DNA of 64,000 nt from Endozoicomonas elysicola (GTDB taxonomy: Bacteria > Pseudomonadota > Gammaproteobacteria > Pseudomonadales > Endozoicomonadaceae): the NCBI RefSeq assembly GCF_000710775.1, contig NZ_JOJP01000001.1, positions 1,255,825 through 1,319,824 on the forward strand, read 5' to 3'. Positions 13,220 through 39,084 of this stretch are shown here, piece by piece. Below the pieces are notes generated by a model. That model was given only the letters and a program-made list of their open reading frames with translations. It did no database searches and was not told the DNA's origin. The translations under genes were made by a program, and so were the position numbers. The stretch's first letter is position 1; each line of letters begins with the position of its first letter.

Positions 13220-13586
13220 GGGGGCGATCAGGATTCGACGACGGTTACGAAACCTAAGGTGCATGTCGAGCGTGTAGTGACGCTCGTAAATCAAAACACT
13301 ACAAACGTATTAGTTGCTAACGATAATAGCTACCACGGAGCTATGGCTGCCTAATAACAGCCGACTCCCGATCACTCTGTTTTGTCTATTGGGTGGAAAT
13401 GATCGCAATCGAAAATAGAATCGTCACATCAGTTTTCCTGTAGCTGTTGGATTAAAACCTTTCAGGATCGCGTGGTTCACCCTGACCGTTGGGTCGTGCT
13501 GCGTTAATTTAAAAACGGAAGCTAAGCATGTAGAGCCGAAGGCGTAGAGCTGGCGGACGCGGGTTCAAGTCCCGCCGCCTCCACCA
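13220..13586 (+). ncRNA. ssrA: Transfer-messenger RNA, copy 1 (canonical locus)
   Basis: 367-nt tmRNA. The 5' end GGGGGCGA pairs with the 3' CGCCTCC before ACCA, giving the seven-base-pair acceptor with the G3-U70 pair that AlaRS requires. The conserved tRNA-like 5' segment (GGATTCGACGACGG) and T-arm (GGGTTCAAGTCCC) are present. After TTAGTT the resume codon GCT starts a 12-codon tag reading ANDNSYHGAMAA, then TAA TAA (13316-13357). The tag keeps the AND start and AA end of proteobacterial tags, but the penultimate region (AMAA instead of ALAA) is unusual. It lies downstream of smpB and has a strong terminator. Confidence 0.96.
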
Positions 13587-13592
13587 AATATA

Positions 13593-13625
13593 AACCCCGT
13601 AGATCATCGATTTACGGGGTTTTTC
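13593..13625 (+). terminator. Terminator of ssrA copy 1
   Basis: ACCCCGTA pairs with TACGGGGT, then TTTTTC. It begins 6 nt after the CCA end. Confidence 0.9.
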
Positions 13626-13865
13626 TCTATATAGGATTTGTTAAATCTGGCAGGGTGTCGAAAATTAATTTCGGTCAATTTTCAATATCTACGACTTTGT
13701 CGTTCAAGACTTGTCAGGGGGTTAAGTTCTTCGGCTGCCATGAAGTGGTCGGGGACAAATTAAGCCACATAGGAGGAAACCTCTAAAAACGCCATAACTG
13801 TTTGCTTTGCATCATAGAAGAAAAATGAGGTTTGATTTATAAGACACACTTTTGTGTCGCACTGT

Positions 13866-14774
13866 ATGACAAGATATCCCCTGCTATATCTGCTGTTACT
13901 CTTGTCTTCGATGGCTCAAGCTATCGGGAGACTCAGTATTGGCAATACAGACCTGCCCCTGGTTGAAACAGAGTGGATACTGGGTCAGCCATCAATATCG
14001 ACATCAATTGATTTGTGTTTGGTCTCATCTGTTTATTGGGCCTTTAGTGGGTGGAAGCCGGAACCATTCTGGGTGGAAGTACGCCCGAAATCTGCAGGAA
14101 ATGGATACCATCTAGGGGATAACCAACAAATTCCCGTAACTTTTACCTTTCAGAAGAATGGTGAGGGTGCCAGAGACATCAAAGAAGGACAGCCTTCTGC
14201 AAATATCGCTGGTAACAATCAGTGTAATGGAACCAATCTCTATAAGCTAAATGTCACAATGTATGTTGATGGTCATGAATTCTATGGCTCTACATATAGC
14301 GGTGCTTTTACCCTCAGGTTAGGTTGGAGTCATGATGGTCAGACGGCAGAAATTGGTTTCGACCTGTCACTTGTCGTGCCGGAGGCGGCGTATGTTTCTG
14401 GTTTGGAGCATTTGACTCTTGTCGACTCCGGATCAGGCTGGACTGATGAGAATAACTTTGTCTGTGTATATTCTTCAACCAATAATGCCAAGTATAATGT
14501 TGAAGCCTCTGGAGAGAATAGTACAACTGACTTCAAACTGAAGATGGATAATAGTGATGCAGCTCCTATTGACTACACCCTTGAATGGAAAGATAGGAAT
14601 GGTAGATGGCGAACATTCACTCCAGGAAAAATAATCCAAAACCGGAAGGGAAGTTCTTCTGTGGACTGCCTTGATGGCCATTTATCTGGTGTAAAAGCAA
14701 CAGCATACCCCGATGGTACCTCTCAGCCAGGTGTGTACCAAGATACGGTGACGATAACGGTTTACCCAAGATAG
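13866..14774 (+). CDS. Secreted protein with SCPU/spore-coat-U-like C-terminal domain
   Basis: 302 residues with an N-terminal signal peptide (MTRYPLLYLLLLLSSMAQA). The rest is beta-rich and contains several cysteines. The C-terminus (GVYQDTVTITVYPR) matches the closing strand of SCPU/CsuA-type domains used in chaperone-usher pilins and adhesins. No chaperone or usher is next to it, so it may be a lone surface protein or adhesin. The frame is open to a GTG at 13854, but ATG at 13866 gives the better signal peptide. Specific function is unknown. Confidence 0.55.
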   Translation: MTRYPLLYLLLLLSSMAQAIGRLSIGNTDLPLVETEWILGQPSISTSIDLCLVSSVYWAFSGWKPEPFWVEVRPKSAGNGYHLGDNQQIPVTFTFQKNGEGARDIKEGQPSANIAGNNQCNGTNLYKLNVTMYVDGHEFYGSTYSGAFTLRLGWSHDGQTAEIGFDLSLVVPEAAYVSGLEHLTLVDSGSGWTDENNFVCVYSSTNNAKYNVEASGENSTTDFKLKMDNSDAAPIDYTLEWKDRNGRWRTFTPGKIIQNRKGSSSVDCLDGHLSGVKATAYPDGTSQPGVYQDTVTITVYPR

Positions 14775-14877
14775 TAAGGAGCGTCTCGCAAAAAATTAAA
14801 GTGATAGTGCGTCGACTCTCATTACGGGCATCATCACTACAATCCCTCCTTTTTCACCATTCGGTTCATCGGGCAGG

Positions 14878-15570
14878 TTGTGTCTATTGAAACTTAGCAA
14901 ACGACTCAAACAGATCGATTCCATGGTTGCCTCTGGGTACACTCATATCTGGGACTGCTGCTGTGACCATGGCTTTCTGGGGGCTGCACTGTTATCAAGA
15001 CAGGCTGCAGAGTGCATTCATTTTGTGGATATTGTACCCGAGCTGATGGTTGAACTGAGCCGTAAGCTGGAACGCTTTTTTCCACATTCATCTTCAGCCT
15101 GGGAAGCCCATTGTCTGGACGTGAAAGCATTACCGTTGAATCAGTATGAAGGGAGGCATCTGGTCATCATTGCCGGTGTCGGCGGTGATCTGATGGTTCA
15201 GTTTATCAATGCTCTGGTTCAGTACTATCCGGATCACGCTATTGATTTCCTGCTCTGCCCTGTCTATCACCAGTATATGGTACGGCAACACTTGATTGAG
15301 CTCGGCTTTAGCCTGAAGCAGGAAGTGCTGGTAGAAGAAAACCAGCGGTTCTATGAAATTCTGCTGGTGTCGTCAGTTAGTGATGTTCAATCAAAAATCA
15401 GCCCCTTTGGTGATGGAATCTGGAAAGCCGATAATGCACAGCAGGCTTCAGTAGCCAGAAGGTATCTTAATAAAACGTTGGGTCATTACCAGAGGATTCA
15501 ACGAAGCAGCGCTGACAACGTCCAGCCCGTGATTGATGGTTATCAACGTGTAATCATTTCTTCGTCGTGA
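14878..15570 (+). CDS. TrmK-like tRNA (adenine-N1) methyltransferase family protein
   Basis: About 230-residue Rossmann methyltransferase of the TrmK/COG2384 type, which in Bacillus methylates A22 of tRNA. SAM motif I is visible as DCCCDHGFLGAALL, followed by a DI acidic strand end and the IIAGVGGDLM motif, equivalent to the family's GMGG. The start is uncertain: TTG at 14878 opens the frame, and another TTG four codons on is possible. It is monocistronic. Activity is inferred from family only. Confidence 0.75.
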   Translation: MCLLKLSKRLKQIDSMVASGYTHIWDCCCDHGFLGAALLSRQAAECIHFVDIVPELMVELSRKLERFFPHSSSAWEAHCLDVKALPLNQYEGRHLVIIAGVGGDLMVQFINALVQYYPDHAIDFLLCPVYHQYMVRQHLIELGFSLKQEVLVEENQRFYEILLVSSVSDVQSKISPFGDGIWKADNAQQASVARRYLNKTLGHYQRIQRSSADNVQPVIDGYQRVIISSS

Positions 15571-15702
15571 ACCTTTTTTTATTCCAGTTCTCAAAACCGA
15601 TAGCTTGTTGAGTTCTATTCAGAGCTTTATCCGTAATCTGTGAACGGGATCCTTTTGTGACTATTGCCTTATTAATCAATAATCTATAAAAAGCGCGGGC
15701 AA

Positions 15703-17919
15703 ATGAAATGTGTAAGGAACAGAAATTTGTTCAAGCGTAAATTATTACAACTGGCTACTTCCACTGTACTGGCTGCCATGGGTGCAAGTGCACAGGCTAA
15801 TGGTTCGGCTATGGTCAATCCTGACAGTGGCGTTGTTGTGGGCTATTGGCACAACTGGTGTGATGGCGCAGGTTATCAGAGGGGTAATGCTCCCTGTGTG
15901 AAGCTGGATCAGATTGACCCGATGTACAACGTGGTTAACGTCTCTTTTATGAAGGTGTACGACACGGCGGCAGGTCGTATTCCGACATTTCATCTGGATC
16001 CGGCCATTGGTCTCTCTGAACAGCAGTTTATTAATCAGATTGCAGAACTCAATAACCAGGGGCGCTCTGTGCTGATTGCCCTCGGCGGTGCTGATGCGCA
16101 TGTTGAATTGAAAACAGGTGATGAGCAGCCCTTCGCGGATGAGATTATCCGTCTGACGGACATCTACGGTTTTGATGGTCTGGATATCGACCTGGAGCAG
16201 GCAGCGGTTACCGCTGCAGATAACCAGACGGTGATCCCAGCAGCATTGCGCATTGTTAAAGACCATTACAAGGCACAGGGTAAAAACTTCCTGATCACCA
16301 TGGCACCGGAGTTTCCTTACCTGACCACCGGTGGCAAGTACGTTCCCTATATCGAAAATCTGGAAGGTTACTACGACTGGATCAACCCTCAGTTTTACAA
16401 TCAAGGTGGTGATGGTATCTGGATTGATGGTGTTGGTTGGATTGCCCAGAACAACGACGACCTGAAAGAAGAGTTCATTTACTACATTTCTGACTCTCTG
16501 GTGAACGGCACCCGTGGTTTTCACCAGATTCCTCACTCCCGGCTGGTCTTTGGTATCCCGACCAGCAATGATGCGGCCGCTACCGGTTTTGTTAAAGACC
16601 CGCAAGATCTTTACAACGCCTTTGAACGTCTTGATGCACAGGGGCAGGGGCTGCGTGGTGTGATGACCTGGTCGGTAAACTGGGATATGGGCACCGATGC
16701 ATCGGGCAAGGCTTATAACGAGCAGTTTATTAAAGACTACGGCCCGTTTATCCACAGTAACTCGCCAACGCCACCACCGGTTGATGGAAAGCCGGTATTC
16801 AAAGGCATTCAGAACTCCCGCATTCTGCACGGCAGTGATTTTGACGCGATGGCCGGAGTAACCGCCATCGATAACGAAGACGGCGATCTTACGGGTGCTA
16901 TCCAGCTCGATGGCTATGTCGATACCCATGAGATTGGTACTTATGCCCTGACTTACCGTGTGACAGATAGCGATGATAACGCAACATCCATCGTTCGATC
17001 TGTGGAAGTGTACAGTCTGAAACCTGTCTTCACCGGGGTAGATAACACAATCATCCAGCTCAATACCCCATTTGATGAAATGGCGGGTGTTACGGCTACC
17101 GATGCTGAAGATGGTGATCTGACATCAGCCATCCGGGTATCCGGTTCTGTGAACACATCAGTCGTTGATGTTTATACATTGAACTATTCCGTCACTGACA
17201 GTGCTGGTCAGGCGGTATCAGCTAAGCGCAAAGTTACCGTATCCGACGGTACCAGCTGTGCTAACCCCTGGGGTGCAGGCACTGTCTACTTAAAAGGTGA
17301 TGAAGCATCTCATAACGGAATTCTGTGGCAGGCCGGCTGGTGGACCCAGGGTGAAGAGCCGGGAACCACCGGTGAGTGGGGTGTATGGCGTAAAGTCTCT
17401 GACAGCTCCTGCGGTGGTGGTGGCCAGCCCGATCCTGAGGCAGAAATGACAGTTTCTGGTGTTGCTTCTGAGTACATGGCAGACAATGGTCAGGTAAACC
17501 TGTCACTTCAGGTGACCGTTAATGAAACGATGGATCTGAACGCTGTCATCACTGACTCGAACGGTGATGTGGTGAGCGATGCCAGTCTGTCGGTTACTGA
17601 TAATGCCAGCCTTGCTTTGACCATTAATAATGCAGAAGCGGGTCGTTATGCCCTTACTGTAACCGGCACCACCGCTGATGGTGAAACAGCCAGCTACGAG
17701 GCAGGCTTTACGGTCAAAGTTGATGGTGGCGTAACACCGCCTCCGGGTGAGTATCCACTGTACGATGCCAATGCCAGCTACGCGGCCGGTGATATTGTGC
17801 TCGGCAGTGATAATGCCCTGTATGAGTGCAAGCCATGGCCTTACACCGCCTGGTGTTCAAGTCCGGCTTATGCACCAGGCAGCAGCCAGTATTGGCAGGA
17901 TGCCTGGATCAGACTGTAA
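15703..17919 (+). CDS. Multidomain secreted chitinase, GH18 family
   Basis: 738-residue enzyme predicted to be secreted and to cut chitin. It has a signal peptide (about residues 1-32) and a GH18 barrel (about 45-345) with the catalytic motif FDGLDIDLE and the acid E165. Two Ig-like surface domains of about 75 residues follow, each repeating the pattern MAGVTA-D-EDGDLT. Then come a chitin-binding CBM5/12-like module (about 520-570, W-rich), another Ig-like domain, and a second aromatic CBM-like module at the C-terminus (YPLYDANASYAAGDIV ... WQDAWIRL). The gene stands alone. Chitin use fits a marine or invertebrate-associated life. Confidence 0.92.
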   Translation: MKCVRNRNLFKRKLLQLATSTVLAAMGASAQANGSAMVNPDSGVVVGYWHNWCDGAGYQRGNAPCVKLDQIDPMYNVVNVSFMKVYDTAAGRIPTFHLDPAIGLSEQQFINQIAELNNQGRSVLIALGGADAHVELKTGDEQPFADEIIRLTDIYGFDGLDIDLEQAAVTAADNQTVIPAALRIVKDHYKAQGKNFLITMAPEFPYLTTGGKYVPYIENLEGYYDWINPQFYNQGGDGIWIDGVGWIAQNNDDLKEEFIYYISDSLVNGTRGFHQIPHSRLVFGIPTSNDAAATGFVKDPQDLYNAFERLDAQGQGLRGVMTWSVNWDMGTDASGKAYNEQFIKDYGPFIHSNSPTPPPVDGKPVFKGIQNSRILHGSDFDAMAGVTAIDNEDGDLTGAIQLDGYVDTHEIGTYALTYRVTDSDDNATSIVRSVEVYSLKPVFTGVDNTIIQLNTPFDEMAGVTATDAEDGDLTSAIRVSGSVNTSVVDVYTLNYSVTDSAGQAVSAKRKVTVSDGTSCANPWGAGTVYLKGDEASHNGILWQAGWWTQGEEPGTTGEWGVWRKVSDSSCGGGGQPDPEAEMTVSGVASEYMADNGQVNLSLQVTVNETMDLNAVITDSNGDVVSDASLSVTDNASLALTINNAEAGRYALTVTGTTADGETASYEAGFTVKVDGGVTPPPGEYPLYDANASYAAGDIVLGSDNALYECKPWPYTAWCSSPAYAPGSSQYWQDAWIRL

Positions 17920-17935
17920 TCGTGTAGTGAAATAA

Positions 17936-17963
17936 GAGAAGCGGTGAGTGATTACCGCTTCTC
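17936..17963. terminator. Hairpin after chitinase gene
   Basis: GAGAAGCGGT / ACCGCTTCTC perfect 10-bp stem, 16 bp after the stop. There is no strong T run, so terminator strength is uncertain. Confidence 0.5.
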
Positions 17964-18172
17964 AAGCACCGAATAAATATATCCTCACCCTCATGAAACT
18001 TTTCTCCCAGGCGGTGTTGGCCGGCAGAGCTCAAACCTGAATTCTGCTAGAGTGGCTGCCGGATAAATCCAGTGTCATTTGAGTCTGTGTGTTACGTAAT
18101 CTGGATGGTGCACGGCATAGGCGAGGCGTGAGGCTTCGTTCTGTCGCGACTCGTTTTCATGAATAAGGTGTA

Positions 18173-19213
18173 GTGAAAGTGATAAAAGTAGGTGTGATTG
18201 GCTATGGTTATTCTGCAAACACTTTCCATATTCCATTGATTGAATCAATCGAGTCAATGGAATTGACGGCTATTAGCAGTTCTAAACCAGAAGTCATAGA
18301 AGCTGAGCACCCCTCCGTTACCGTATTTGATTCGGCAGAAGCATTAATTACCAGTGGTAATGTTAATCTTGTGGTTATTACCGCGCCAAATCACGTTCAT
18401 TTTTCATTGGCAAAACTGTGCTTGGAAAATGGTGTACATGTGGTTGTTGAAAAACCAATGGTGACCACGAGTTTGGAGGCGGAAGAGCTTGAGTCCATCG
18501 CTGAAAAAAGTGGATTAGTGCTATCAGTGTTTCACAATCGGCGTTGGGATGGTGACTTTCTAACGGTGCAAAAACTGTTGAGGGAAAATGCCTTAGGAGA
18601 CCTTAAGCTCTTTGAGTCGCGCTATGATCGTTTTCGCCCGATTGTTCGTCAACGGTGGCGGGAAGAACCCGGGCCTGGAGCCGGTATCTGGTATGATCTG
18701 GGTTCTCATCTGGTTGACCAGTCAATTACCCTGTTCGGATTGCCAGAGGCGTTGACGGCAAGATGCTTACCGTTAAGAGACGGTTCAAAAACAACCGATT
18801 ATTTTCACGTACTGCTTCATTATCAAGGCTTTGAAGTCATTCTTCATGCCAGCTCCTTTTCAGCTGCACCCAATAGTCGCTTTCGACTTGAAGGCAGTCA
18901 AGGCAGTTTTGTTAAGTATGGATTTGACCCCCAGGAAGCGCAGTTGAAAAATGGTATGGTGCCATCTCAGTCAGGGTATGGCATTGAAAATAAAGAGCAG
19001 TATGGCAGTCTCTACGGTGATGCCGCTGTTGAATGCATTGCAACAGAAGCCGGTTGCTATCAACACTATTACCAGGATGTAGCAAACGCAATAATTACTG
19101 GCGATAGAAATCCGGTTAGCCCCAGTGATGCTGTGGAAGTGTTAAAAATTCTTGAGTTGGCTGAAAAAAGCAGCCAGCAGGGCCAAACACTTTCTGTGTG
19201 TGAGGCAGATTGA
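18173..19213 (+). CDS. Gfo/Idh/MocA family oxidoreductase
   Basis: 346-residue NAD(P)-dependent oxidoreductase. The N-terminal Rossmann motif is VGVIGYGYSANTFHIPLI, the EKP motif (VVVEKPMV) is near residue 97, and the C-terminal substrate domain carries DLGSHLVDQ. The sequence is close in style to YdgJ/YhhX-like sugar or inositol dehydrogenases. GTG at 18173 is the start. A GNAT gene follows 4 bp after the stop, so the two are probably co-transcribed. Substrate is unknown. Confidence 0.85.
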   Translation: MKVIKVGVIGYGYSANTFHIPLIESIESMELTAISSSKPEVIEAEHPSVTVFDSAEALITSGNVNLVVITAPNHVHFSLAKLCLENGVHVVVEKPMVTTSLEAEELESIAEKSGLVLSVFHNRRWDGDFLTVQKLLRENALGDLKLFESRYDRFRPIVRQRWREEPGPGAGIWYDLGSHLVDQSITLFGLPEALTARCLPLRDGSKTTDYFHVLLHYQGFEVILHASSFSAAPNSRFRLEGSQGSFVKYGFDPQEAQLKNGMVPSQSGYGIENKEQYGSLYGDAAVECIATEAGCYQHYYQDVANAIITGDRNPVSPSDAVEVLKILELAEKSSQQGQTLSVCEAD

Positions 19214-19217
19214 ACTC

Positions 19218-19682
19218 ATGACTATAACTGAAGTAAGAAGAGCGACCGGGCAAGATCTTGAAACGATCCAGAAGATCGCCAGAGAGACCATTGATAAGAG
19301 TTATCGCTCTTTTCTGGGTGATGAAGCGGTTGACTGGTACATCAACAGTGGCGAGTCCGACAAAGAGCTGGCAAGTTATTTGGATCGCTGTGATGTGCTG
19401 ACGCTGGATAATGAGATTGCCGCCTTTACCATCTATTTTGATGACCTGATCCATCTGATGATGGTGGATGTGAAGCTGCACCGCAGTGGGTTGGGTTCTA
19501 CACTGCTGGCACATTCCGGTGCCCAGCTGTTTTCCAGAGGCCATCAGGTTATTCGACTTGAAACTTTTCAGGGCAACACCCAGGCTATTAACTTCTATAA
19601 GAAGAACCACTGGTTGGTAGTGAAAGAAGAAAAAGACGAGGCATTTGGTTTCGTTCGTGTGTTCTTTGAAAAGCGGGCATAG
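19218..19682 (+). CDS. GNAT family N-acetyltransferase
   Basis: 154-residue acetyltransferase. The central strand DLIHLMMVDVKLHRSGLGSTLLAHS contains a motif A-like R/Q-x-x-G-x-G pattern (RSGLGS), and GNTQAINFYKKNHW is the usual C-terminal segment. ATG at 19218 is preferred; the frame continues upstream only within the end of the oxidoreductase gene. Likely forms an operon with the genes on either side. Confidence 0.8.
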   Translation: MTITEVRRATGQDLETIQKIARETIDKSYRSFLGDEAVDWYINSGESDKELASYLDRCDVLTLDNEIAAFTIYFDDLIHLMMVDVKLHRSGLGSTLLAHSGAQLFSRGHQVIRLETFQGNTQAINFYKKNHWLVVKEEKDEAFGFVRVFFEKRA

Positions 19683-19690
19683 TCGGGGAA

Positions 19691-20119
19691 ATGATGAAAA
19701 AGGGCTGGGGTATCATTCTTGCTTTGATGGCATTTACCGCCTCGGCAGCAGAAACTATAGATTGTAGTAAGGCCTATACGACCATTGAAATCAATCAATG
19801 TGCCACCATTGAGCTGGGTGTAGCTCAGAAGGAAATGCAGCGTTATTTTGACGCTAGTTTAAAGCATAATAGCTTTGATACTGAGCTGGTTGCAGCGATT
19901 AGAGCAGCACAAAGCGACTGGGAGAAGTACTACAATTCCCATTGAGATGCTGTGTATACGCAGTGGCGTGAAGGGACTATTTGGGGAGTGATGGCGCTTT
20001 CCTGCCAGACAAAACTGACCCGACAGAGAACCCATGAGCTGTGGGAAAATTTCCTGACGTATATGGACAGTACGCCGCCAGTGTTGCCTGAACCTAAATT
20101 CAGCAGCCAGGTGCTTTAA
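19691..20119 (+). pseudogene. LprI-like (DUF1311) protein gene interrupted by in-frame TGA
   Basis: An LprI/DUF1311-type protein with signal peptide (MMKKGWGIILALMAFTASA) and the family motif DCSKAYTTIEINQCATIEL. Translation stops at TGA 19943-19945, yet the same frame runs on for 57 more codons to TAA at 20117 and gives the rest of the family (WREGTIWGVMALSCQTKLTRQRTHELWENFL). The TGA falls where the family normally has a cysteine before the acidic-tyrosine segment. A TGC/TGT to TGA mutation is the simplest reading. Recoding as selenocysteine is possible but the downstream hairpin is weak. Confidence 0.7.
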
Positions 20120-20197
20120 TTTCTCTGCGAGCCTCAGAACTAAAGGCTCTCCGCGGAGTTACCTATTCACCTTTTGGGGGATCGGCTATAACGCTCT

Positions 20198-20314
20198 GCG
20201 GCTTTCTGAAAAATTTCAGCGCCCTCCGCTGCGTTGTGCCATTTGCCAAGGACTACGGCCATTGGCTGCATGACGCGCCTTGCTGAGAACACTGAAATTT
20301 CCCAGAAAATCCGC
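20198..20314. repeat. 117-nt long-stem inverted repeat
   Basis: GCGGCTTTCTGAAAAATTTC at the left pairs imperfectly with GAAATTTCCCAGAAAATCCG at the right, giving a 22-bp stem, and an inner TGCCAA/TTGGC stem adds structure. No gene is inside. It could be a miniature element or a structured RNA. Confidence 0.45.
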
Positions 20315-20370
20315 ATCCAACTGCTGAATTTCGCCTGAACCAAACCATTAATCGGTATAACAAAGACAGT

Positions 20371-20973: not shown

Positions 20974-21134
20974 CATTTTTGTGTTGTGCGTTGGGAGGCC
21001 GTCAAGCAACGGCTGATTTTAGCCTGTGAAACCAATCCCTTTTAAAATCCTCTGCTGGGGATGGTCTATATTAAAAGGCACGTGTTTGGTAAAAATGCCT
21101 GCATTCTGCTCAATCAGTAGAGGAATTCATCTCG

Positions 21135-30875: not shown

Positions 30876-30891
30876 GAGTAAATGCAAAAAT

Positions 30892-30924
30892 AAAGAAACG
30901 TCAGAATTCATCTGACGTTTCTTT
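30892..30924. terminator. Bidirectional intrinsic terminator
   Basis: AAAGAAACGTCAGA pairs with TCTGACGTTTCTTT around a five-base loop, serving the thioesterase gene (+) and the DoxX gene (-). Confidence 0.85.
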
Positions 30925-30930
30925 GTCCAT

Positions 30931-31524
30931 TTATTTTTTCAACAGCTTTCTTCCCACAAAGTAATCCACGCTGACATAGCGTCCTGCACCCTGGAAAAAG
31001 AGCACCAGCAACATAACCAGATAGGTTGCAGCAAACTCAATACCATTGTTCAGAATCACCGGCTTACCAAACTCGGTAATGTAGTTGTAGCGGCCAGGAT
31101 GGTTCAACTTCAGCCAGCCCAGAAAACCATTCAGTCGTTTTGCTGCTTCCGCAGCATTTTCATTGGGTGCAAAGCTGCCTGGATCAGCAATAGCCTGCCA
31201 CCCGTGGGGCCAGTGCACGGCAAAAATAGCAACCAGCATAGTGATGATCAGCGGAACAGAGATCAATCGAATACCCAGGCCTGCGACCAGTAAAACCGCA
31301 CCAATAATCTCTGTCCAGGTTGCCAGGGCGGCCATCAGCCAGGGTAAGGGCAGGGCAAGCCCATGTTCAAACCACATCACAATATCTTCAAAATGCGCCA
31401 GCTTATTGGTGCCGGCAATCCAGAAAATGGGGGCAAGGTATAGGCGAAGGGCCAGCAGGGGTAGTCCATCAGCGTGATGGAGGCAGTCCACTGTTTTTTG
31501 GTAGAGTGACGGGATCGTATTCAT
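30931..31524 (-). CDS. DoxX family membrane protein (bufferin locus, GigP/BufD-type)
   Basis: 197 residues with four TM segments and the DoxX core (LRLYLAPIFWIAGTNKLAHFEDIVMWFEHGLALP). DoxX proteins commonly accompany the DUF692/DUF2063/bufferin genes found at 33552-35504 (for example the gold/copper-induced gig operon). Here it is separate but shares with bufA the promoter motif TGTAAC-N16-CGTTG, which ties it to the same ECF regulon. Its exact biochemical role is unknown; electron transfer or quinone-linked redox support has been proposed for relatives. Confidence 0.82.
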   Translation of the reverse strand: MNTIPSLYQKTVDCLHHADGLPLLALRLYLAPIFWIAGTNKLAHFEDIVMWFEHGLALPLPWLMAALATWTEIIGAVLLVAGLGIRLISVPLIITMLVAIFAVHWPHGWQAIADPGSFAPNENAAEAAKRLNGFLGWLKLNHPGRYNYITEFGKPVILNNGIEFAATYLVMLLVLFFQGAGRYVSVDYFVGRKLLKK

Positions 31525-31564
31525 GGCTGACTCCCTGAATCTTGTTTTTATTGGGTTATTAACT

Positions 31565-31591
31565 CAACGTATGAGTGGGATGGTTGTTACA
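31565..31591 (-). promoter_or_regulatory. Putative ECF sigma promoter of the DoxX gene
   Basis: Minus strand: -35 TGTAAC (31591-31586), 16-bp spacer, -10 CGTTG (31569-31565). The same motif with identical spacing lies upstream of bufA at 35557-35583, and an ECF sigma gene is divergent from it. Confidence 0.65.
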
Positions 31592-31631
31592 GCATGAAGG
31601 TCATTTTTTTCATTCCCGGGTTTGTAACGGT

Positions 31632-32228
31632 ATGGACGATGAAGCGTTATTAATAAAACAGGCACAAAATGGTGATCAGCAGGCGTTTACGGTGTTGGTG
31701 CGGCATTATTACCGCCTGATGAGCTTTGTTGCCCTGCCCATTGTGGGTGAAAGCGATGCCGATGAAATTGTTCAGGAAGCCTGGTTGACGGTGCATCAGA
31801 AGCTGCCGGAATGGGAGCCCAGAGGCAGCTTTAAAGGGTGGTTGCTGACCATTACTGCCAATGAAGCCCGTTCCCGGTATCGCAAACAGAAGCGGGAGTT
31901 TCTGTCAGATGCTCCGGAAGAGGAACCTATGGCTCACCGCTTTAAGGCCAACGGCCATTGGCAGCAGCCTCCGTCTAACTGGGACCTGGGAGGGCCAGAG
32001 GCATTATTGGACAAACGTGAACTGATGGACTGCCTGAACCATAAGATCACCGCGTTGCCAGAAAAACAGCGTCTGGTGTTTGGCTTGAAAGATCTCAGCC
32101 AGATGTCACTGGAAGAGATCGCTGGCTTTATTGATGAGTCGGCGGCGAATGTCAGGGTTCTGCTGCATCGGGCACGAGCCAAGTTGTATTCCGGTATTGA
32201 ACATTTTCAGGAGACAGGCATATGTTGA
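31632..32228 (+). CDS. ECF-type RNA polymerase sigma factor
   Basis: 198 residues with region 2 (FTVLVRHYYRLMSFVALPIVGESDADEIVQEAWLTVHQKLPEWEPRGSFKGWLLTITANEARSRYRKQKRE) and region 4 (LPEKQRLVFGLKDLSQMSLEEIAGFIDESAANVRVLLHRARAKL). It overlaps the zinc anti-sigma gene by seven bases. It probably directs transcription of the divergent DoxX gene and of bufABC, both of which carry a common promoter motif. ATG at 31632 gives the normal ECF start; the frame is open 19 codons further upstream. Confidence 0.88.
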   Translation: MDDEALLIKQAQNGDQQAFTVLVRHYYRLMSFVALPIVGESDADEIVQEAWLTVHQKLPEWEPRGSFKGWLLTITANEARSRYRKQKREFLSDAPEEEPMAHRFKANGHWQQPPSNWDLGGPEALLDKRELMDCLNHKITALPEKQRLVFGLKDLSQMSLEEIAGFIDESAANVRVLLHRARAKLYSGIEHFQETGIC

Positions 32229-32455
32229 AATGTCGGGATATTGAGCGCATGGCGGGTCAGCTTCAGGATGATGAGCTGAACTGGCGACAGCGCTTTAGTA
32301 TGCGGATGCATCTGATGATGTGCCATCATTGTCGCCGTTTTGTCAGGCAGTTTGCTGCCATAAAAAAACTGGCCGAGCGCTCTGTCAGTGAGCAGGCTTC
32401 TGATGATGAAGTACAGTCAGTGATGGATAAAATCAACGATCCGCAGAAGGGTTAG
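32222..32455 (+). CDS. Zinc-finger anti-sigma factor
   Basis: 77-residue soluble ZAS-type anti-sigma. The signature H-x3-C-x2-C is at H30, C34, C37 (MHLMMCHHCRRF), with a further cysteine near the N-terminus. No TM segment, so it likely senses a cytoplasmic metal or redox signal and releases the overlapping ECF sigma factor. Confidence 0.85.
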   Translation: MLKCRDIERMAGQLQDDELNWRQRFSMRMHLMMCHHCRRFVRQFAAIKKLAERSVSEQASDDEVQSVMDKINDPQKG

Positions 32456-32466
32456 AATAACCCTTC
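32446..32466. terminator. Hairpin between convergent anti-sigma and Ntn-hydrolase genes
   Basis: GAAGGGTTA / TAACCCTTC perfect 9-bp stem overlapping the anti-sigma stop codon. There is no T run, so it is weak. Confidence 0.4.
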
Positions 32467-32472
32467 GTTATG

Positions 32473-33471
32473 TTAAAGCGTATAACTCTCAAAATTGATC
32501 ATTGGATTAAAACCTTCTCTTAACTGCATCTGCCGTCTACCCAGATCCATCATTAGCGTAACCAGCGTACCGCCATTGCCAGTCAGCTCATGATAGCTGT
32601 AGGGCCTCAGTATTGGATAAGGTTGCTCATTGTTATCCAGAAGCAGCTGTATGGCTTTCAGGCTTAACTCCGGATTTTTTTGATGATTTTCCTGCAGTTT
32701 TTTCAGGCGGGTTTCTGTGCAGGTTCGGGTGGTTGTGGGTAGCGCCTGCCCTGGTTGCAGATAGTGGTTGGTATGGAAATAGGTGGTCTGCTCTGTTGAC
32801 TGAAACCAGGGTTGATCCGGCGCCAGCTCCACGGCAATCGTCGTTTTTTTGTCGGCCACCATCACATGGCTGGCCTTGCCTGCACCATGTATTTTGATCA
32901 TTGCTTTGGCCTCCTGCAGAGTCTGGCACTCAAGCAGCGCCCTGAGCAGGAAGTGTACGGGCAGACCGGTCAGCTTCTGGTTAGCGGGCAGAATATTCAG
33001 GCAGACGCCAAGGCCAGCAGAGTTCATACCAATTTTGGCCAGCATACCCGGTTCGGTCATGGTTAATAGGCGATGGCCCGATTCCAGCTCAATGTCTACC
33101 AGCGCCAGTTGACCTTCCAGAGCCTGAGCCCAGTCCCAGTTTTGACCTATTAAGCCCTGTTGGGGAAAGGCAATGGATGAACATTCCGTGGGAACGGGCG
33201 ATGACATCAATTCACTGCGGGCGTTAATACAGTAGATCCAGAATGGCTCAACACCAGATGCTTTGGCAATGGCATCCATTTCAACCTGATACTCTGGTCT
33301 GAAAGCGATCAGCTGCTGCATCAGCAGATCTACATGACTCTGCAGCTTTGCCCTGTCCGCCAGGAAGCGGGAGCGGTAATAGTCCAGAACGGTGTGGATT
33401 TCTTCACGCATCAGCTCGCCATGAAGGTGTCCACGGTCTTTGGCTGATCCTTTCAGCAGCAGCTTTTTCAT
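32473..33471 (-). CDS. C45 family autoproteolytic acyltransferase/hydrolase (AAT-like)
   Basis: 332-residue Ntn-hydrolase-fold protein related to acyl-CoA:6-aminopenicillanate acyltransferase. The expected self-cleavage point and nucleophile is C97 (TECSSIAFPQQGLIGQNWDW), preceded by a helical N-terminal segment containing RGHLHGELMREEI. Members cleave amide bonds or transfer acyl groups; the substrate here is unknown. It points the same way as bufC and lies 80 bp downstream of it, so it may be co-transcribed with the bufferin genes, an uncommon association. Confidence 0.75.
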   Translation of the reverse strand: MKKLLLKGSAKDRGHLHGELMREEIHTVLDYYRSRFLADRAKLQSHVDLLMQQLIAFRPEYQVEMDAIAKASGVEPFWIYCINARSELMSSPVPTECSSIAFPQQGLIGQNWDWAQALEGQLALVDIELESGHRLLTMTEPGMLAKIGMNSAGLGVCLNILPANQKLTGLPVHFLLRALLECQTLQEAKAMIKIHGAGKASHVMVADKKTTIAVELAPDQPWFQSTEQTTYFHTNHYLQPGQALPTTTRTCTETRLKKLQENHQKNPELSLKAIQLLLDNNEQPYPILRPYSYHELTGNGGTLVTLMMDLGRRQMQLREGFNPMINFESYTL

Positions 33472-33551
33472 TGGTGGTAATCCAGCGCTCAGTGACTCCT
33501 TATTATTGCTCTGTTAGCAATGGCTTTGACAAGAGCTTTTACCAGATATCT

Positions 33552-34310
33552 TTAAGGGCTATGCCCCAGAATCAAACCCAGTTGATAATAGTTTACCAGT
33601 GCCTGTTCGGCATAAGGTTTAACTCGAGCCTGCTCTGTCGTCGTCAGGTGCTCCAGGGTCTGGTTGATAAGCATCTTCTGGTTAGCTGGTCGGTCAAGAT
33701 CGCAAGCCGCTTGAAACAGCTGCCAGGCCAGCGCATCCACGGAAAGAAAGCGAGTCTCGTTTTCCTGTCGGTAAATAATCAGAAGCGTTGGTTGTTCGGG
33801 AATAGTCTCTGGCTGAAAGTCCTGGCTGATTTTATGGACGGGGTATTGATAGGCTGCGGCCACAGCATTCACTGACCAGATAAGTTCATCTTCACATTCT
33901 GAAAAATAGTTGATCAGCATTGCTGGTGGTTCGTCCTGCTCGTTACCCAGCAAGACGGTTTCGAGCCATTCGTAATGTGCCAGTTCCTGAAGGAAGGGTG
34001 GCAGAGTCCGGTCTTCATCGGTCACTGGTCTTGTATTAAGCCAGGCCAGAAATTCAGCCGAGATATCGATAAAGTAGGGAGAACCTGCGTGATGCCCAGC
34101 AATAAAGCGATCAATCAGACTACTGAACTGTGCCTCGGATAATATCTTCTTCAGCACAGGGTAGCCCTGGCTGACAAAGTTAAAAATATTATTTCGGATT
34201 AACCTTGAATAGACGGCAAAGCCTTCAGGCTTGATCTGGTCGAAAGGATTATCTGCCTGATGACGTATAGCCTCAGTGAACTGTTGCTGAACCTTTTGAA
34301 AATCATCCAC
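33552..34310 (-). CDS. bufC: DUF2063 family protein, bufferin maturation partner BufC
   Basis: 252 residues. The N-terminal domain fits the DUF2063/putative DNA-binding domain family (QQQFTEAIRHQADNPFDQIKPEGFAVYSRLIRNNIFNFVSQGYPVLKKIL), which pairs with DUF692 enzymes and corresponds to MbnC/BufC; the C-terminal domain carries a helical acidic region. It overlaps the bufB stop by eight bases. In known systems the B and C proteins form a complex that modifies cysteines of the precursor peptide to thiooxazole-type groups. Confidence 0.85.
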   Translation of the reverse strand: MDDFQKVQQQFTEAIRHQADNPFDQIKPEGFAVYSRLIRNNIFNFVSQGYPVLKKILSEAQFSSLIDRFIAGHHAGSPYFIDISAEFLAWLNTRPVTDEDRTLPPFLQELAHYEWLETVLLGNEQDEPPAMLINYFSECEDELIWSVNAVAAAYQYPVHKISQDFQPETIPEQPTLLIIYRQENETRFLSVDALAWQLFQAACDLDRPANQKMLINQTLEHLTTTEQARVKPYAEQALVNYYQLGLILGHSP

Positions 34311-35154
34311 AGGCGTACTCCTTCTGCTGATTCATCTCAGCCTGCTGTATACGATGAATGGTGGTCAGCTCTTCGACCAGTTCCTCCAACGGGGGAATAT
34401 TAAAATCCCGTTCCAGCAGGGTCGGGAAGACTCCGTGGTGCTTATAGGCTTTGTGGAGCAGCTGCCAGACATCATCCCGCACCGGTGCTCCGTGACTGTC
34501 GATAATCAGATCTGGCTGTTCGACAAAATGACCGGCAATATGGCCATAGCTGATGCGCTTCGAGGGTAGCTGCCTCAGAAACGTATCCGCGTCATAACCA
34601 TGATTGATGCTGTTCACAAAGATATTGTTGATATCCAGCAGCAGCTCACAATCTGCCAGTTCCAGAATCGTGTTAATAAACTCAATTTCTGGCATCTGCT
34701 GCCCGGGAGCACAGTAGTAAGAGACATTCTCCACCGCAATAGGCTCCCCCAGAAAGTCCTGAGTCTGCTTAATGCGGTCTGCAACATAATGTGCTGCGGC
34801 TTTGGTAAACGGGATGGGCATCAGGTCATAAAGGTGCCCCTGGTCAGAGCAGTAACTGAGGTGCTCGGTATAACGCACCACACGGTGCTCTTGAAGAAAT
34901 GTTTTGATCTCTTTCAGCAGGTTCATGTCCAGAGGTGTTGGTCCGCCCAGTGACAGAGAGAGACCATGACAGACCAGTGGCGTCTGTTCCAGGATTTGTT
35001 CCAGCAGCTGGCGCCTCTGCTTTGGGGCTTTAATCCAGTTTTCCGGAGCCACCTCCAGAAACTGAACGGTGGATGGCACCTCTCTGGCCATAGCCTGAAG
35101 GTGCTCCCGGCGCAGGCCAAGGCCTGCACCGCAGAGTGAGTGAAGAGGCTTCAT
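34303..35154 (-). CDS. bufB: DUF692 multinuclear iron oxidase, bufferin maturation enzyme BufB
   Basis: 283-residue TIM-barrel protein of the DUF692/MbnB family. Several conserved metal-ligand motifs are visible: CHGLSLSLGG, TEHLSYC, ENVSYY, DINNIFVNSINHG, YGHIAGH, DSHGAPV and LERDFNIPPLEEL. The ATG at 35154 overlaps the stop of bufA (TGATG), so translation is coupled to the precursor peptide. The frame extends ten codons upstream but that part lies inside bufA. Confidence 0.9.
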   Translation of the reverse strand: MKPLHSLCGAGLGLRREHLQAMAREVPSTVQFLEVAPENWIKAPKQRRQLLEQILEQTPLVCHGLSLSLGGPTPLDMNLLKEIKTFLQEHRVVRYTEHLSYCSDQGHLYDLMPIPFTKAAAHYVADRIKQTQDFLGEPIAVENVSYYCAPGQQMPEIEFINTILELADCELLLDINNIFVNSINHGYDADTFLRQLPSKRISYGHIAGHFVEQPDLIIDSHGAPVRDDVWQLLHKAYKHHGVFPTLLERDFNIPPLEELVEELTTIHRIQQAEMNQQKEYACG

Positions 35155-35504
35155 CAGGCGGCTCCGCACTTGCCTTCGCCACATTTGCCTTCTTCATCCT
35201 TGCTGGCCGATTCGCCACATTTGCCCTCACCGCACTTGCCTTCGTCCACTTTGGTCGCATTGTCGCCACCGCATTTCCCTTCGCCACACTTGCCTTCTTC
35301 TGTTTTAGCAGAGGTTGATGAGGCACCGCATTTGCCTTCCCCGCACTTGCCCTCTTCGAGCGTTCTCTCCGCCAGAACAACACCTTCATAGCCCTGATTC
35401 AGCGCTGTGATTGAGCCTGTCATATCAGCGCTGACGGTGATTGATGCGGCGGATACGAGAGTGGCTGCAACCAGTGTGGTCAGTTTATTGGTTCTTGTAG
35501 TCAT
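35154..35504 (-). CDS. bufA: Bufferin-type precursor peptide with four EGKCGEGKCG repeats
   Basis: 116 residues with a signal peptide (cleavage near residue 26, VSA|DM). The mature part holds four copies of EGKCGEGKCG, eight cysteines in all, separated by short acidic/serine linkers. EGKCGEGKCG is the hallmark of type 1 bufferins, ribosomally made peptides whose cysteines are modified by BufB-BufC and that bind copper in the periplasm. RBS AGGAG precedes the ATG. An ECF-type promoter lies about 55 bp upstream. Having four tandem motifs is more than the one or two I associate with typical members. Confidence 0.9.
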   Translation of the reverse strand: MTTRTNKLTTLVAATLVSAASITVSADMTGSITALNQGYEGVVLAERTLEEGKCGEGKCGASSTSAKTEEGKCGEGKCGGDNATKVDEGKCGEGKCGESASKDEEGKCGEGKCGAA

Positions 35505-35556
35505 TGGTGACGCTCCTGTCGTTTTTATCAGGCCGCAAATCGCGGACTTATCAATA

Positions 35557-35583
35557 CAACGTGGGAGTCGGAGAGATGTTACA
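35557..35583 (-). promoter_or_regulatory. Putative ECF sigma promoter of bufABC
   Basis: Minus strand: TGTAAC (35583-35578), 16-bp spacer, CGTTG (35561-35557), the same motif and spacing as at 31565-31591. Confidence 0.65.
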
Positions 35584-35784
35584 AAAAAAGTTAAAAAAGT
35601 TTGAGGTAGTGGTTTAGTACTATCAGTTCAACCCAGTTCTTGTGGGTAAAGAGATGCTTTGTTCATTATTTCTTCAGGAAGGCTCAAAAACTGGTCTTAT
35701 GGTTGTTTAATCTTGCTGTCATTGAACTGTTTTCCAAGAACGATTTCTAAATAAAGAGAATTATAACGTTAACAGGTCTGACAA

Positions 35785-37173
35785 ATGTTAAATCTTGATA
35801 TTTCAAACGCAGTTCTGAATCAAAGCTCCTGGAAAAGTGAGTCTGTTGCCAAAAAGCACCGTGGCAGTGATGAGAATACGCCGCCGCCCGATCTATTCAG
35901 GGAGGCGAGCCCATTCAATACTGAGACTCAATACGACCTGGGCTATGAAGTTAATCATAATACCCTCAAAGATGGATTCCGTTTGATTGACTCACATCCT
36001 AGAGTGCTGGAGAACCCTGAAAATAAAATTAGTAATATTGAGCAAGATGAGCTCAGGAAGTTTGAAGAAGGCAAAGCTGAGTTTTTTATAAAGCGTGCAG
36101 GAAGCACAGATCAACAGAGAATGGAGCGGTGGGTTGAGTCAGTTTTAGCTGAAAACCTCGAGTATGCCAGAGACCAGAAAGATAACCCGATCCGTAGGCC
36201 TGATAGTCAGAGGCAGACTAACCCTGTCTTGGAGGCTGGGCCTCACTTCCTTTCTGACAGGGCAGTCAGTTTTGGTTGGCAATATAAAAGCAAGAAAGGA
36301 GAAGATTTCTGTATAGCTGGAAGATTTGAGATCCTTGTTTCCGGCGAGAGGGCGCCTTTTTTCTTTTCCTGTGTTTGTGATGGGCATGGAGGTCAGGAAG
36401 TTGCGCGGCTGGTTCAGGCAGAGATTCCTGCTGTTCTTTCAAAAGCTATGACGCTTTCCTGCAAGAATGGTATTGATCCTGCCAGTGTTTATTATGCTCT
36501 GAACTTAACGTTCGAACATTTGCAGAATCAGGTGGATGAACATATAAAATCAATGCCATTGGCGGTGGTTAAGAAAGGTAAGGGAACTACCGTCAACCTG
36601 ATGGTTCAGGAAGGAAAACATACCTGGTTTGCCAATGCTGGTGATAGCCGTGGTTGCGTCCTGAAACGGGATTTCTCCGGGATTATACAAGCTACTGAAG
36701 ATGCAACCTGCAGTAAGCCAAGGTTTGTTGAAAAAGTTACAAATATGGGCGGGTTTATTGCTCCGAACAAGAAAGTTAATGAGGCAGTTGCTACGCCCTG
36801 CGCTATCGGAACGTACTATATACGAAAGTCAGAATATACTCAGGAGCGGGGATTTATAAAAGTGATTGACCATGAGCCTGCCATTACACGGGTGGTCACT
36901 GGAAAATATCCTTGGGTCGTTCAGGCTTCCGATGGTTTGTGGAATGTGGTGTCCACAGAAGACACTCAAAAGTTGATTCTTAAACATCAGTTGAACAAGC
37001 CTGATTACATTGCCCAAATGCTATTGAAAGAGGCGCACAGCCGGTGGGATAGGGATTTAAAGCGGGTACCTGAATATAAGCGTCGTCCCATAGATGACAT
37101 TACTGTCCAGGTGACCATTTTCTCCACTCCCAAGGTACTCGGCCTGTCGCAGGAAGTAAGTACAGACAACTGA
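35785..37173 (+). CDS. PP2C-type serine/threonine protein phosphatase
   Basis: 462 residues. The PP2C domain (about 160-445) shows the metal-binding motifs in order: CDGHGG with D199, ANAGDSRG with D287 region, ASDGLWNV with D383, and DDITV near the end. A ~130-residue N-terminal extension rich in charged and polar residues precedes it; no signal peptide or TM segment is visible. The extended GHGG and long spacing look more like eukaryotic PP2Cs than like bacterial PrpC. No kinase gene is adjacent. It may act on bacterial or, as a secreted effector, on host proteins; that is speculation. Confidence 0.85.
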   Translation: MLNLDISNAVLNQSSWKSESVAKKHRGSDENTPPPDLFREASPFNTETQYDLGYEVNHNTLKDGFRLIDSHPRVLENPENKISNIEQDELRKFEEGKAEFFIKRAGSTDQQRMERWVESVLAENLEYARDQKDNPIRRPDSQRQTNPVLEAGPHFLSDRAVSFGWQYKSKKGEDFCIAGRFEILVSGERAPFFFSCVCDGHGGQEVARLVQAEIPAVLSKAMTLSCKNGIDPASVYYALNLTFEHLQNQVDEHIKSMPLAVVKKGKGTTVNLMVQEGKHTWFANAGDSRGCVLKRDFSGIIQATEDATCSKPRFVEKVTNMGGFIAPNKKVNEAVATPCAIGTYYIRKSEYTQERGFIKVIDHEPAITRVVTGKYPWVVQASDGLWNVVSTEDTQKLILKHQLNKPDYIAQMLLKEAHSRWDRDLKRVPEYKRRPIDDITVQVTIFSTPKVLGLSQEVSTDN

Positions 37174-37202
37174 TGCCTGTACTATCGGTAACAAACTTCG
37201 AC

Positions 37203-38261
37203 TCACATTAAACCAAAACGGAAAACTGTTTTCTCTTGATAAGTGTCACCCGGGTTCAGCTGAGTGGATGGAAACTCTGGCCTGTTTGGTGAATCCGGAA
37301 AGTGCTGAGTCTCCAGACAGAAACCTGCCCGCATTCCGTACTGAAGGCCTCCCCGAGCAGGCTCGCCTTTCAGGAAGTTGCCTGTGTAGAGCTGCACACC
37401 CGGTTGGGTGGTGAGCACTTCCAGGGTTCGGCCACTTTCTGCCTCTTCTGCCAGTGCGACAGGTTTCAGAGAGTGATCACTGCCTCTTTCCGTCCATATG
37501 ACCCAGTTGTGGTCATATCCCCTGGCCTGTTTCAGCTGGACAAAGTCTTGACCAATATCTTGGCCGATGGGCTTCATGGTGGTGAAGTCCATGGGGGTGT
37601 TGATAACAGGCTCAATCTCGCCATAGGGGATGGAAGTTTCATCAGTAGGTGTGAAATGGCTGCAGTGAAGTTGCAGCTGGTGGCTCAGGCAGTCTTCGCT
37701 GCCGTTAAGGTTGAAATAGGCATGGTTGGTCAGGTTAACCACAGTAGGGGCATCCGTCGTTGCCTGATATTCAATCCCCAGCTCATTCTGGTTATTCAGG
37801 GTGTAGATCACATTGACTTTCAGCGTCCCGGGGTAACCCTCTTCACCATCCTCTGACTCATAATAAAGAGACAGTGTGCAGAGGTTGTCGCTTGTATGAT
37901 GTTCAGCCCGCCAGAGATGATGATCAAAGCCCACCTTGCCACCATGCAGATGATTGGGTGCATCGTTACAGGCCAGCTGAAACCGCTCACCATTCAGTTC
38001 AAATTCACCTCTGGCAATACGGTTGGCATAACGGCCAACAATGGCGCCAAAATAAGCACCTGAGCGTTCATAGTCTGCCACTGAGTCGCAGCCCAGGGTG
38101 ACTTCGCCCAGATCGCCAGCTCTATCCGGAACACGAATGCTCTGGATAATCCCCCCCATGGTCAAAATGGTGACTTCCATGCCTTTCTGGTTACAGAGCC
38201 TGAAAGCATAAACCGGTTCACCGGAGCGATTGGCTCCAAACACTTCCTGAAAAATCTTCAT
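37203..38261 (-). CDS. galM: Aldose 1-epimerase (galactose mutarotase)
   Basis: 352-residue mutarotase converting alpha and beta anomers of aldoses. Active-site histidine motifs NHLHGGKVGFD and TNHAYFNL, and the C-terminal acid region QPGVQLYTGNF with CLETQHFPDSPN, are present and in the usual order. ATG at 38261 gives the family N-terminus; 14 upstream codons in frame show no match. It stands alone and converges with the PP2C gene. Confidence 0.92.
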   Translation of the reverse strand: MKIFQEVFGANRSGEPVYAFRLCNQKGMEVTILTMGGIIQSIRVPDRAGDLGEVTLGCDSVADYERSGAYFGAIVGRYANRIARGEFELNGERFQLACNDAPNHLHGGKVGFDHHLWRAEHHTSDNLCTLSLYYESEDGEEGYPGTLKVNVIYTLNNQNELGIEYQATTDAPTVVNLTNHAYFNLNGSEDCLSHQLQLHCSHFTPTDETSIPYGEIEPVINTPMDFTTMKPIGQDIGQDFVQLKQARGYDHNWVIWTERGSDHSLKPVALAEEAESGRTLEVLTTQPGVQLYTGNFLKGEPARGGLQYGMRAGFCLETQHFPDSPNRPEFPSTQLNPGDTYQEKTVFRFGLM

Positions 38262-38303
38262 AAATACGCCATTGCTCTGGAACACAAGGTCTCCAACATT
38301 CAC

Positions 38304-38639
38304 AAAACGTGGAGTCAGGCTTCGTACGTAAAGAGAAATTTACGTAGTCAGCGGTATCACCAAAGATAGCCATAGTATCCAGAGTTTGTATATCAATTCA
38401 CTGCTTGGGGTCATGGCAGAGGGCCTTCATGGTGTATTCAGTAACCAGAGTTCAAAAAACATCCAGCAGAATTAGCGTTAAGCCTGCAGTTGACGTGGTG
38501 GTGATCGATCGGTACAGGCAGGCTAATCTGGGGAAGGAGGCTCAACTGGTCTGGCCCGGTTTACTTTGCCGGCTGGACCGTACCGACCCATCATGGCGGG
38601 AATAACCGGTCGATATGTCCACTGATTATGCTCCAGCCA
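38304..38639. other. Region between galM and ssrA copy 2
   Basis: 336 bp without a supported gene, ending in the tmRNA copy 2 promoter. Confidence 0.4.
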
Positions 38640-38668
38640 TTGCGACATCGAGCTCAGTGCTCTATAAC
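38640..38668 (+). promoter_or_regulatory. Sigma-70 promoter of ssrA copy 2
   Basis: TTGCGA (38640-38645), exact 17-bp spacer, TATAAC (38663-38668), 10 bp before the mature 5' end. It is closer to consensus than that of copy 1. Confidence 0.75.
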
Positions 38669-38678
38669 TATTAGTTCC

Positions 38679-39084
38679 GGGGGCGATTCGGATTCGACGA
38701 CGGTATCGAACCCTTAGGTGCATGCCGAGGGCGTAGTGGTTCTCGTTAATCAAAACACTACAAACCTATTAGTTGCCAAATCAAGCAACTTCGAAAGCGC
38801 AAACGACGCTGAGTACGCTCAGCTGAAACTTGCTTAATCGTAGCTAAACCCTACGAGCTTTCCAGTCTAACCGGTTCGTTTGCTGGCTGGTATTCAGACT
38901 GTCATCGTAAGCAAACTCGCCACGATCAGCAGGTCTCTGGCTGACGGGCTAAAACTTGTGGGAATCGCATCGCAGAACCCCGACCACTGGGTCGCTGTGG
39001 TGTTAAATCAAAGGTGGATCTAAGCATGTAGAGCCGAAGGCTGAGAGCTGGCGGACGCGGGTTCAAATCCCGCCGCCTCCACCA
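38679..39084 (+). ncRNA. ssrA: Transfer-messenger RNA, copy 2 (element integration site)
   Basis: 406-nt second tmRNA. The acceptor pairs as in copy 1, including G3-U70, and the 5' segment (GGATTCGACGACGGTATCGA) and T-arm are intact, so it should be alanylated by AlaRS. After TTAGTT the resume codon GCC opens a 20-codon tag, AKSSNFESANDAEYAQLKLA, then TAA (38775-38837). The embedded ANDAEYA recalls the usual ANDxxYA tag, preceded by eight extra codons and ending KLA instead of ALAA. It is about 40 nt longer than copy 1. The 3' 26 nt serve as the left attachment core of the 21 kb element. Confidence 0.92.
39059..39084 (+). repeat. attL core: 3' end of ssrA copy 2
   Basis: 26-bp T-arm/acceptor sequence from GGGTTCAAATC to CTCCACCA, repeated exactly at 60160-60185. 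Copy 1 of ssrA differs from it by one base (G for A). Confidence 0.9.

Follow-up and report, generated by a model that had tools for sequence, protein, structure and literature searches.

Why would a bacterium keep two genes for transfer-messenger RNA (tmRNA), which is normally encoded by a single gene? The question is raised by a 64,000-nucleotide stretch of DNA from Endozoicomonas elysicola (contig NZ_JOJP01000001.1; hereafter the window), in which a first-pass annotation had noted two complete, different tmRNA genes, here called ssrA1 and ssrA2. E. elysicola belongs to the Endozoicomonadaceae, a family associated with marine animals. Our analysis indicates that ssrA1 and ssrA2 are very probably an ancient pair of paralogues of this family that share SmpB, the second being predicted to be separately expressed and to encode a tag of its own.

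The two genes are real and no artefact, and each is an ordinary tmRNA in kind. The covariance-model check proposed in the first-pass annotation was run on both loci. The Rfam model RF00023 matches both at model positions 1-374, with scores far above the gathering score of 47 (Table 1), and the gene ends given by ARAGORN and by Rfam are the same. Each gene contains an acceptor stem with G3-U70, the GGAUUCGACG segment in its 5′ part, a T-arm, a CCA end and an open tag frame, all as had been described. ssrA2 is the longer of the two, as claimed, by 39 nt and not 40. The reported position of smpB beside the first copy was borne out by its Pfam match, and ssrA1 starts 454 bases after the end of smpB. 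No third RF00023 match above the gathering score is found in the genome of E. elysicola (G000; 5.6 Mb, 2 contigs).

We searched RF00023 in 37 genomes of the Endozoicomonadaceae, from 8 genera. Two length types of tmRNA are found in the family, a short type of 365-369 nt, usually beside smpB, and a long type of 384-419 nt. Both types are intact in 24 of the 37 genomes, from four genera: 9 of 12 in the genus of the window (g1), 1 of 3 in g4, 10 of 10 in g5 and 4 of 6 in g8. The long type stands alone in ten genomes (G005, G008, G012-G014, G016, G017 and G028-G030), and the short type in two (G007, G034). No tmRNA above the cut-off was found in the remaining genome, G033 (96% complete), though SmpB and SspB are present. 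This absence may be an assembly gap, and because many of the genomes are drafts, other single absences are possibly gaps as well. In G005, a second RF00023 match of 52.9 bits is linked to smpB and keeps 181 nt of the 5′ part with 92% identity. ARAGORN makes no call there and the remainder of the gene is lost, so we counted this short copy as decayed.

The genomic positions of the two types were compared on the fetched family stretches, where ARAGORN found 26 short and 35 long genes. smpB is located within 4 kb upstream and on the same strand in 25 of the 26 short genes, and about 45 kb upstream in G027. The sole long-type gene directly follows smpB in G014, G029 and G030. Within the window's genus, 11 genomes have a long type, and in each of them the nearest upstream neighbour among the genes tested by tblastn is a galM-like gene. 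Where both types share a contig, the distance between them ranges from 5.7 kb (G031) to 92 kb (G024), except in G025, where it is much larger, 1.7 Mb if the contig is circular. The two genes probably began as neighbours. G018 contains two nearly identical long-type tmRNAs (L072:308-720 and L073:330-742) on separate contigs with different flanks, one of which adjoins an integrase and a Zot gene.

Outside the family, second tmRNAs are rare in the samples searched, for which the filters were stricter than in the family search. The order sample comprised 115 genomes, 5 of them from the family; among the 110 others, a match with an E value of 1e-20 or lower is found in 99. Two matches are found in a single genome, G110; they are identical to each other and separated by 2.2 kb. 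The class sample comprised 369 genomes including G000, with three candidates scored per genome. A match is found in 316, and two matches in 2 of the 368 besides G000 (G191, G307). A scan of named genome records with a pattern for the first pseudoknot (PK1) of the long type returned 18 stretches, including Endozoicomonas arenosclerae, E. ascidiicola, E. acroporae, E. cretensis, Kistimonas asteriae and a Candidatus Endonucleobacter. Some carry no label beyond gammaproteobacteria or Oceanospirillales, and one is labelled Salinisphaera. The pattern is not strictly specific, because at least one of the 18 stretches (L182) is a short-type gene. A second tmRNA is frequent in the Endozoicomonadaceae, and nearly all sampled relatives show one tmRNA.

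The relation between the two types was examined in a maximum-likelihood tree with 132 tmRNAs, of which 61 are from the family and 71 from other families. All 26 short genes form one clade with support of 100/99. The long type forms one clade of 33 of the 35 genes, from six genera, with support of 99/93, and a single clade for all 35 is not rejected (p-AU 0.446). Without the tag, support is 98/95 for the short clade and 84/93 for the long clade; a tree of the middle of the gene alone splits the types by one branch (84/85). The genes thus behave as a vertically inherited paralogous pair, each type a clade and the two nearest each other, with the long genes of G014 and G028 unplaced. The simplest history is a single duplication early in the family, after which both genes were inherited and later lost in some lineages. 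In G031 and G035, the T-stem has the less common form GGGGG/CCCCC, common to both paralogues of one genome (both genes of L086; the 3′ ends of L088 and L094). This shared T-stem may mean that the copies have swapped 3′ ends, perhaps by way of integrases.

The long type retains most of the structure expected of a working tmRNA. The covariation alignment included 33 long-type genes, leaving out those of G014 and G028, and 84 pairs were named, pseudoknots included. Pairing is kept in 93.6% of cells, and in 40 pairs both partners have changed. The covariation score is 0.270, compared with 0.162 for shuffled controls and 0.038-0.074 for slid controls, the latter comparison favouring the structure because it was drawn from the window's copy. 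G3-U70 is present as GU in 33 of 33 genes, and ACCA is invariant. The first-pass annotation had named broken pseudoknots in ssrA2 as evidence that would count against it. PK1, PK2 and PK4 show no such break and are supported by covariation: in both stems of each, 94.2-100% of cells pair, and every stem includes pairs that changed on both sides. In PK3, 91.7% of the cells of stem 1 pair, and 4 of its 5 pairs show double changes. The long type also evolves no faster than the short type. Across the 276 pairs of the 24 dual genomes, mean identity outside the tag is 0.823 for the short and 0.828 for the long type (r 0.86), with the long type higher in 135 pairs. This equal rate indicates that the long type is no decaying copy.

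The tags differ between the types in length and share two putative recognition elements. Tags were re-read from the codon after the TAGTT-like motif; the first codon is GCC in 33 long genes, GCT in one and GGC in one. ARAGORN's own tag is shorter for a few genes. Long-type tags are 13-28 aa and variable, with 30 distinct sequences in 35 genes. Short-type tags are 12-13 aa, with 16 distinct in 26. Every long tag ends in Ala, 31 of 35 in Ala-Ala, with varied third bases; Ala-Ala is the ending of each of the 26 short tags. The Escherichia coli tag AANDENYALAA contains an SspB site, which the box N[DESQAGN]x(1,2)[FYW] resembles. The box is found in 33 of 35 long tags, compared with 6.2 expected from shuffled tags, and in 26 of 26 short tags, compared with 6.5 expected; these counts are descriptive only, because the pattern was picked after seeing the tags. 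Two tmRNAs from other families, L144:1470-1861 (f33) and L146:1434-1860 (f18), also have long divergent tags, AKVAINDEAFGLERAAA and AENVPMNDADWGTASLAA respectively. Both group apart from the Endozoicomonadaceae long type in the tree.

The upstream regions of the two types also differ. The motif TTG-N19-CTATAA, picked after inspecting the sequences, is found in the 110 bases before 23 of the 35 long genes; none of the 26 short genes and none of the 71 outgroup genes has it there. Upstream of the long-only genes of G016, G029 and G030, the sequence looks short-type-like by eye. In the window, neither gene is preceded by a site that qualifies in a sigma-70 scan, and the ‘stronger promoter’ attributed to ssrA2 was not confirmed. 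The claim that each gene has its own terminator was supported by the terminator scan for ssrA1. The candidate terminator of ssrA2 was read by eye (39094-39118, 8 pairs); its loop of 9 nt explains its absence from the scan list.

A single SmpB is found in each of the 37 family genomes, and SspB in 36. These observations suggest how the pair may function. ssrA1 would be the ordinary tmRNA, with its 12-aa tag and its place beside smpB, and ssrA2 a paralogue inherited alongside it. Both RNAs would be alanylated and associate with the one SmpB; on entering a stalled ribosome, each would add a tag of its own. Each tag would be read by SspB and ClpXP through the N-D-x-x-Y/F box and the C-terminal Ala. 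The ssrA2 tag, longer and fast-changing, would carry the same two signals, often behind an N-terminal extension, and its gene would be served by a promoter motif of its own. Expression of the two RNAs under different conditions would be the reason for retaining both. The first-pass annotation had suggested a specialised second trans-translation RNA; this fits the family-wide retention, the covariation, the tag end and the promoter motif, while the specialisation itself we infer.

Several observations weigh against an ancient, separately expressed pair. In the tree, the short and long clades are joined with support of only 91/76. The long genes of the long-only genomes G014 and G028 branch apart from the long clade, and their branches are long. 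The two genes of f34, the nearest outside family, with one tmRNA per genome in the order sample, fall beside the Endozoicomonadaceae without a clean separation. When only the two gene ends are used (97 columns), the types are unseparated and 4 changes are needed, which indicates either exchange between the paralogues or too little signal in so few columns. Pairing is only 70.3% in stem 2 of PK3 as drawn and 72.0% in the post-tag hairpin, and neither is secured by covariation. The promoter motif is absent in 12 of 35 long genes, namely those of 8 long-only genomes of other genera and of all 4 g8 dual genomes. The last four tag residues are LKLA in the window's ssrA2 and LMVA in the long-type gene nearest to it (G010). 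With KLA in place of AA, the degradation signal of the window's tag may be weaker than in most relatives. Finally, neither type looks indispensable while the other is present, because each is absent from some genomes.

The last point is expected of interchangeable genes, and thus agrees with a simpler explanation for the retention of ssrA2. It could be a functional duplicate kept only to supply more tmRNA, its tag drifting since few residues matter, and with no distinct role. The long tags retain both signals of an ordinary tag, and the body of ssrA2 evolves at the rate of ssrA1, as such a duplicate would. However, retention of both genes across 24 genomes of four genera is long for pure dosage, the upstream motifs differ between the types, and extended tags occur in the long type only. 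We regard dosage as a real possibility that falls short of an even chance. A more elaborate explanation is a family-wide two-tag system, in which separately controlled tmRNAs share one SmpB and the extended tag diversifies under selection, so that proteins rescued under particular conditions meet a different fate. This is speculative and on balance unlikely. The conditions could, for example, be those of the animal host or of phage attack, and the fate could be set by changed use of adaptor or protease, or by escape from an antagonist.

Two other explanations start from the integrated element next to ssrA2. The abutting integrase and the 31-nt repeat identify ssrA2 as the attL side of this 21.1-kb element. 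The first-pass annotation had correctly recognized ssrA2 as the target of an integrative element, and the displaced 3′ fragment is present at the far end. The element is an ordinary 3′-end integration into ssrA2, not the source of ssrA2, the body of which lies outside it beside the galM-like gene. That body having the same galM-like neighbour in all 11 same-genus long-type genomes speaks against the recent arrival of ssrA2 on a phage or island, as in some mycobacteria. The adjoining integrase would agree with such an arrival, as would two papers, in which extra ssrA genes are read as acquired from phage or other bacteria (PMC9569102) and ssrA is described on phages and plasmids (PMC4131195). 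However, the tree unites long-type genes from six genera in one clade, which is joined to that of the short type, and none of the phage or plasmid records searched covers more than 21% of a 561-base query containing ssrA2. Given the clade, the synteny and the weak coverage, we rejected recent acquisition, which is highly improbable. The annotation had also suggested that ssrA2 is kept as a decoy, since mobile elements insert there and spare the smpB-linked copy. The window's element does occupy ssrA2, and integrases are found within 3 kb downstream of 4 of 29 long and 1 of 23 short copies. These counts come from a motif search, which may miss degenerate integrases, and cover copies with at least 1.5 kb of downstream sequence; a profile search seeded with the integrase gave only 6 open reading frames. 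One short copy thus has an integrase beside it as well. Outside the motif count, tblastn found integrase fragments beside another short copy and one long copy, and most copies of both types are without an integrase. In 10 of the 37 genomes, moreover, no intact tmRNA other than the long type was found. It is established that integration at tmRNA islands restores the 3′ end of the gene, and no decoy is needed. On the integrase counts at both types we rejected the decoy as the main reason for two genes, and we see scarcely any chance that it plays this part.

Coordinates of the features in the window are listed in Table 1.

Table 1. Features of the two tmRNA loci and the adjoining element (window coordinates).
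Feature	Position	Strand	Description
smpB	12250..12765	+	Pfam SmpB 190.3 bits; only SmpB gene found in genome
Promoter-like TTGCAT-N17-CATAAA of ssrA1	13171..13199	+	by eye; absent from sigma-70 scan output
ssrA1, short-type tmRNA	13220..13586	+	367 nt; ARAGORN; RF00023 196.6 bits, E 1.1e-78
Tag frame of ssrA1	13316..13357	+	ANDNSYHGAMAA, 12 aa, two stops
Intrinsic terminator of ssrA1	13592..13622	+	terminator scan
galM-like gene, upstream of ssrA2	37203..38303	-	Pfam Aldose_epim 310 bits
Promoter-like TTGCGA-N17-TATAAC of ssrA2, with long-type motif TTG-N19-CTATAA	38640..38668	+	by eye; absent from sigma-70 scan output
ssrA2, long-type tmRNA	38679..39084	+	406 nt; ARAGORN; RF00023 178.1 bits, E 7e-71; covariation (33 long-type genes)
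Tag frame of ssrA2	38775..38837	+	AKSSNFESANDAEYAQLKLA, one stop
attL core = 3′ end of ssrA2	39054..39084	+	31-nt repeat
Integrated element, 21.1 kb	39085..60185		inovirus-like genes (Zot, DUF2523) and defence cargo
Terminator-like stem and seven T after ssrA2	39094..39125	+	by eye; inside integrated element
Tyrosine integrase	39124..40221	-	Pfam Phage_integrase 70.1 bits; PHROG integrase
attR, displaced 3′ end	60155..60185	+	29/31 identical to 39054-39084

Several other features are found in and around the element. It contains a Septu-like pair at 50025-52159, composed of PtuA (PADLOC E 3.7e-166) and PtuB (E 2e-76). Possible additional defence cargo at 53849-57184 includes PDC-S52/DUF6988 (E 3.6e-79), a protein with an Mrr-type restriction endonuclease domain (Pfam 117 bits) and a NERD-domain protein. 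A segment at 57210-57344 repeats 60036-60170 at the attR end over 135 nt with 79% identity, 2.8 kb upstream. This repeat ends in a short tmRNA-like 3′ piece, as if the end of an older element lay inside the island. The 778-aa open reading frame between the two repeats has no Pfam or PADLOC match. Outside the element, DoxX-like, sigma-factor-like, DUF2063-like and DUF692-like genes are located at 30931-35504, together with a small protein with EGKCG repeats. All of these assignments are tentative readings of the sequences, and the set may be a bufferin-type copper-peptide operon.

The family offers a way to study tmRNA tags. With the usual single tmRNA gene, what the tag sequence does is difficult to tell apart from ribosome rescue. 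In the Endozoicomonadaceae, several genera have retained two complete tmRNAs that differ in tag and upstream motif, and some relatives lack one or the other. This retention with losses makes it testable whether the tag sequence, beyond rescue alone, is under selection. Recognition by SspB and ClpXP could also be studied with the matched natural tags of the pair, which are 12 to 28 residues long.

No report of a conserved tmRNA pair in the Endozoicomonadaceae was found among the papers listed in searches of the open-licence literature, where most subscription papers are missing. Genomes with more than one tmRNA gene have been described elsewhere. The tmRNA Website survey (PMC4131195) gives one sentence to second or third ssrA alleles; like here, more than one ssrA is found per genome, and in the portion of its text available no conserved lineage is named and Endozoicomonas is not found. 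In the available part of PMC9743535, tmRNA is named solely in a reference title. Four mycobacteria have extra tmRNAs with different tags, read in PMC9569102 as horizontally acquired from a phage or a Tsukamurella. As in E. elysicola, the second gene encodes a different tag in the same genome. Unlike those acquired genes, the Endozoicomonadaceae pair is inherited across the family, with the second gene nearest to the resident one. A Hydrogenivirga assembly also has two tmRNA types with different tags, in one genome only; contamination or assembly artefact is left possible by the authors (PMC4227106). Genomic islands at tmRNA genes, as described in the Islander paper (PMC4383910), carry an integrase where they adjoin the 3′ end of ssrA, and their other end is marked by a displaced 3′ fragment. 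They match the window's element, not the reason for two genes. With the canonical one-piece gammaproteobacterial tmRNA (RF00023), both genes share the full-length match, the tRNA-Ala-like ends, the pseudoknots PK1, PK2 and PK4 and an Ala-ending tag. Unlike the canonical case, there are two paralogous genes per genome here, the second with a variable tag of 13-28 aa.

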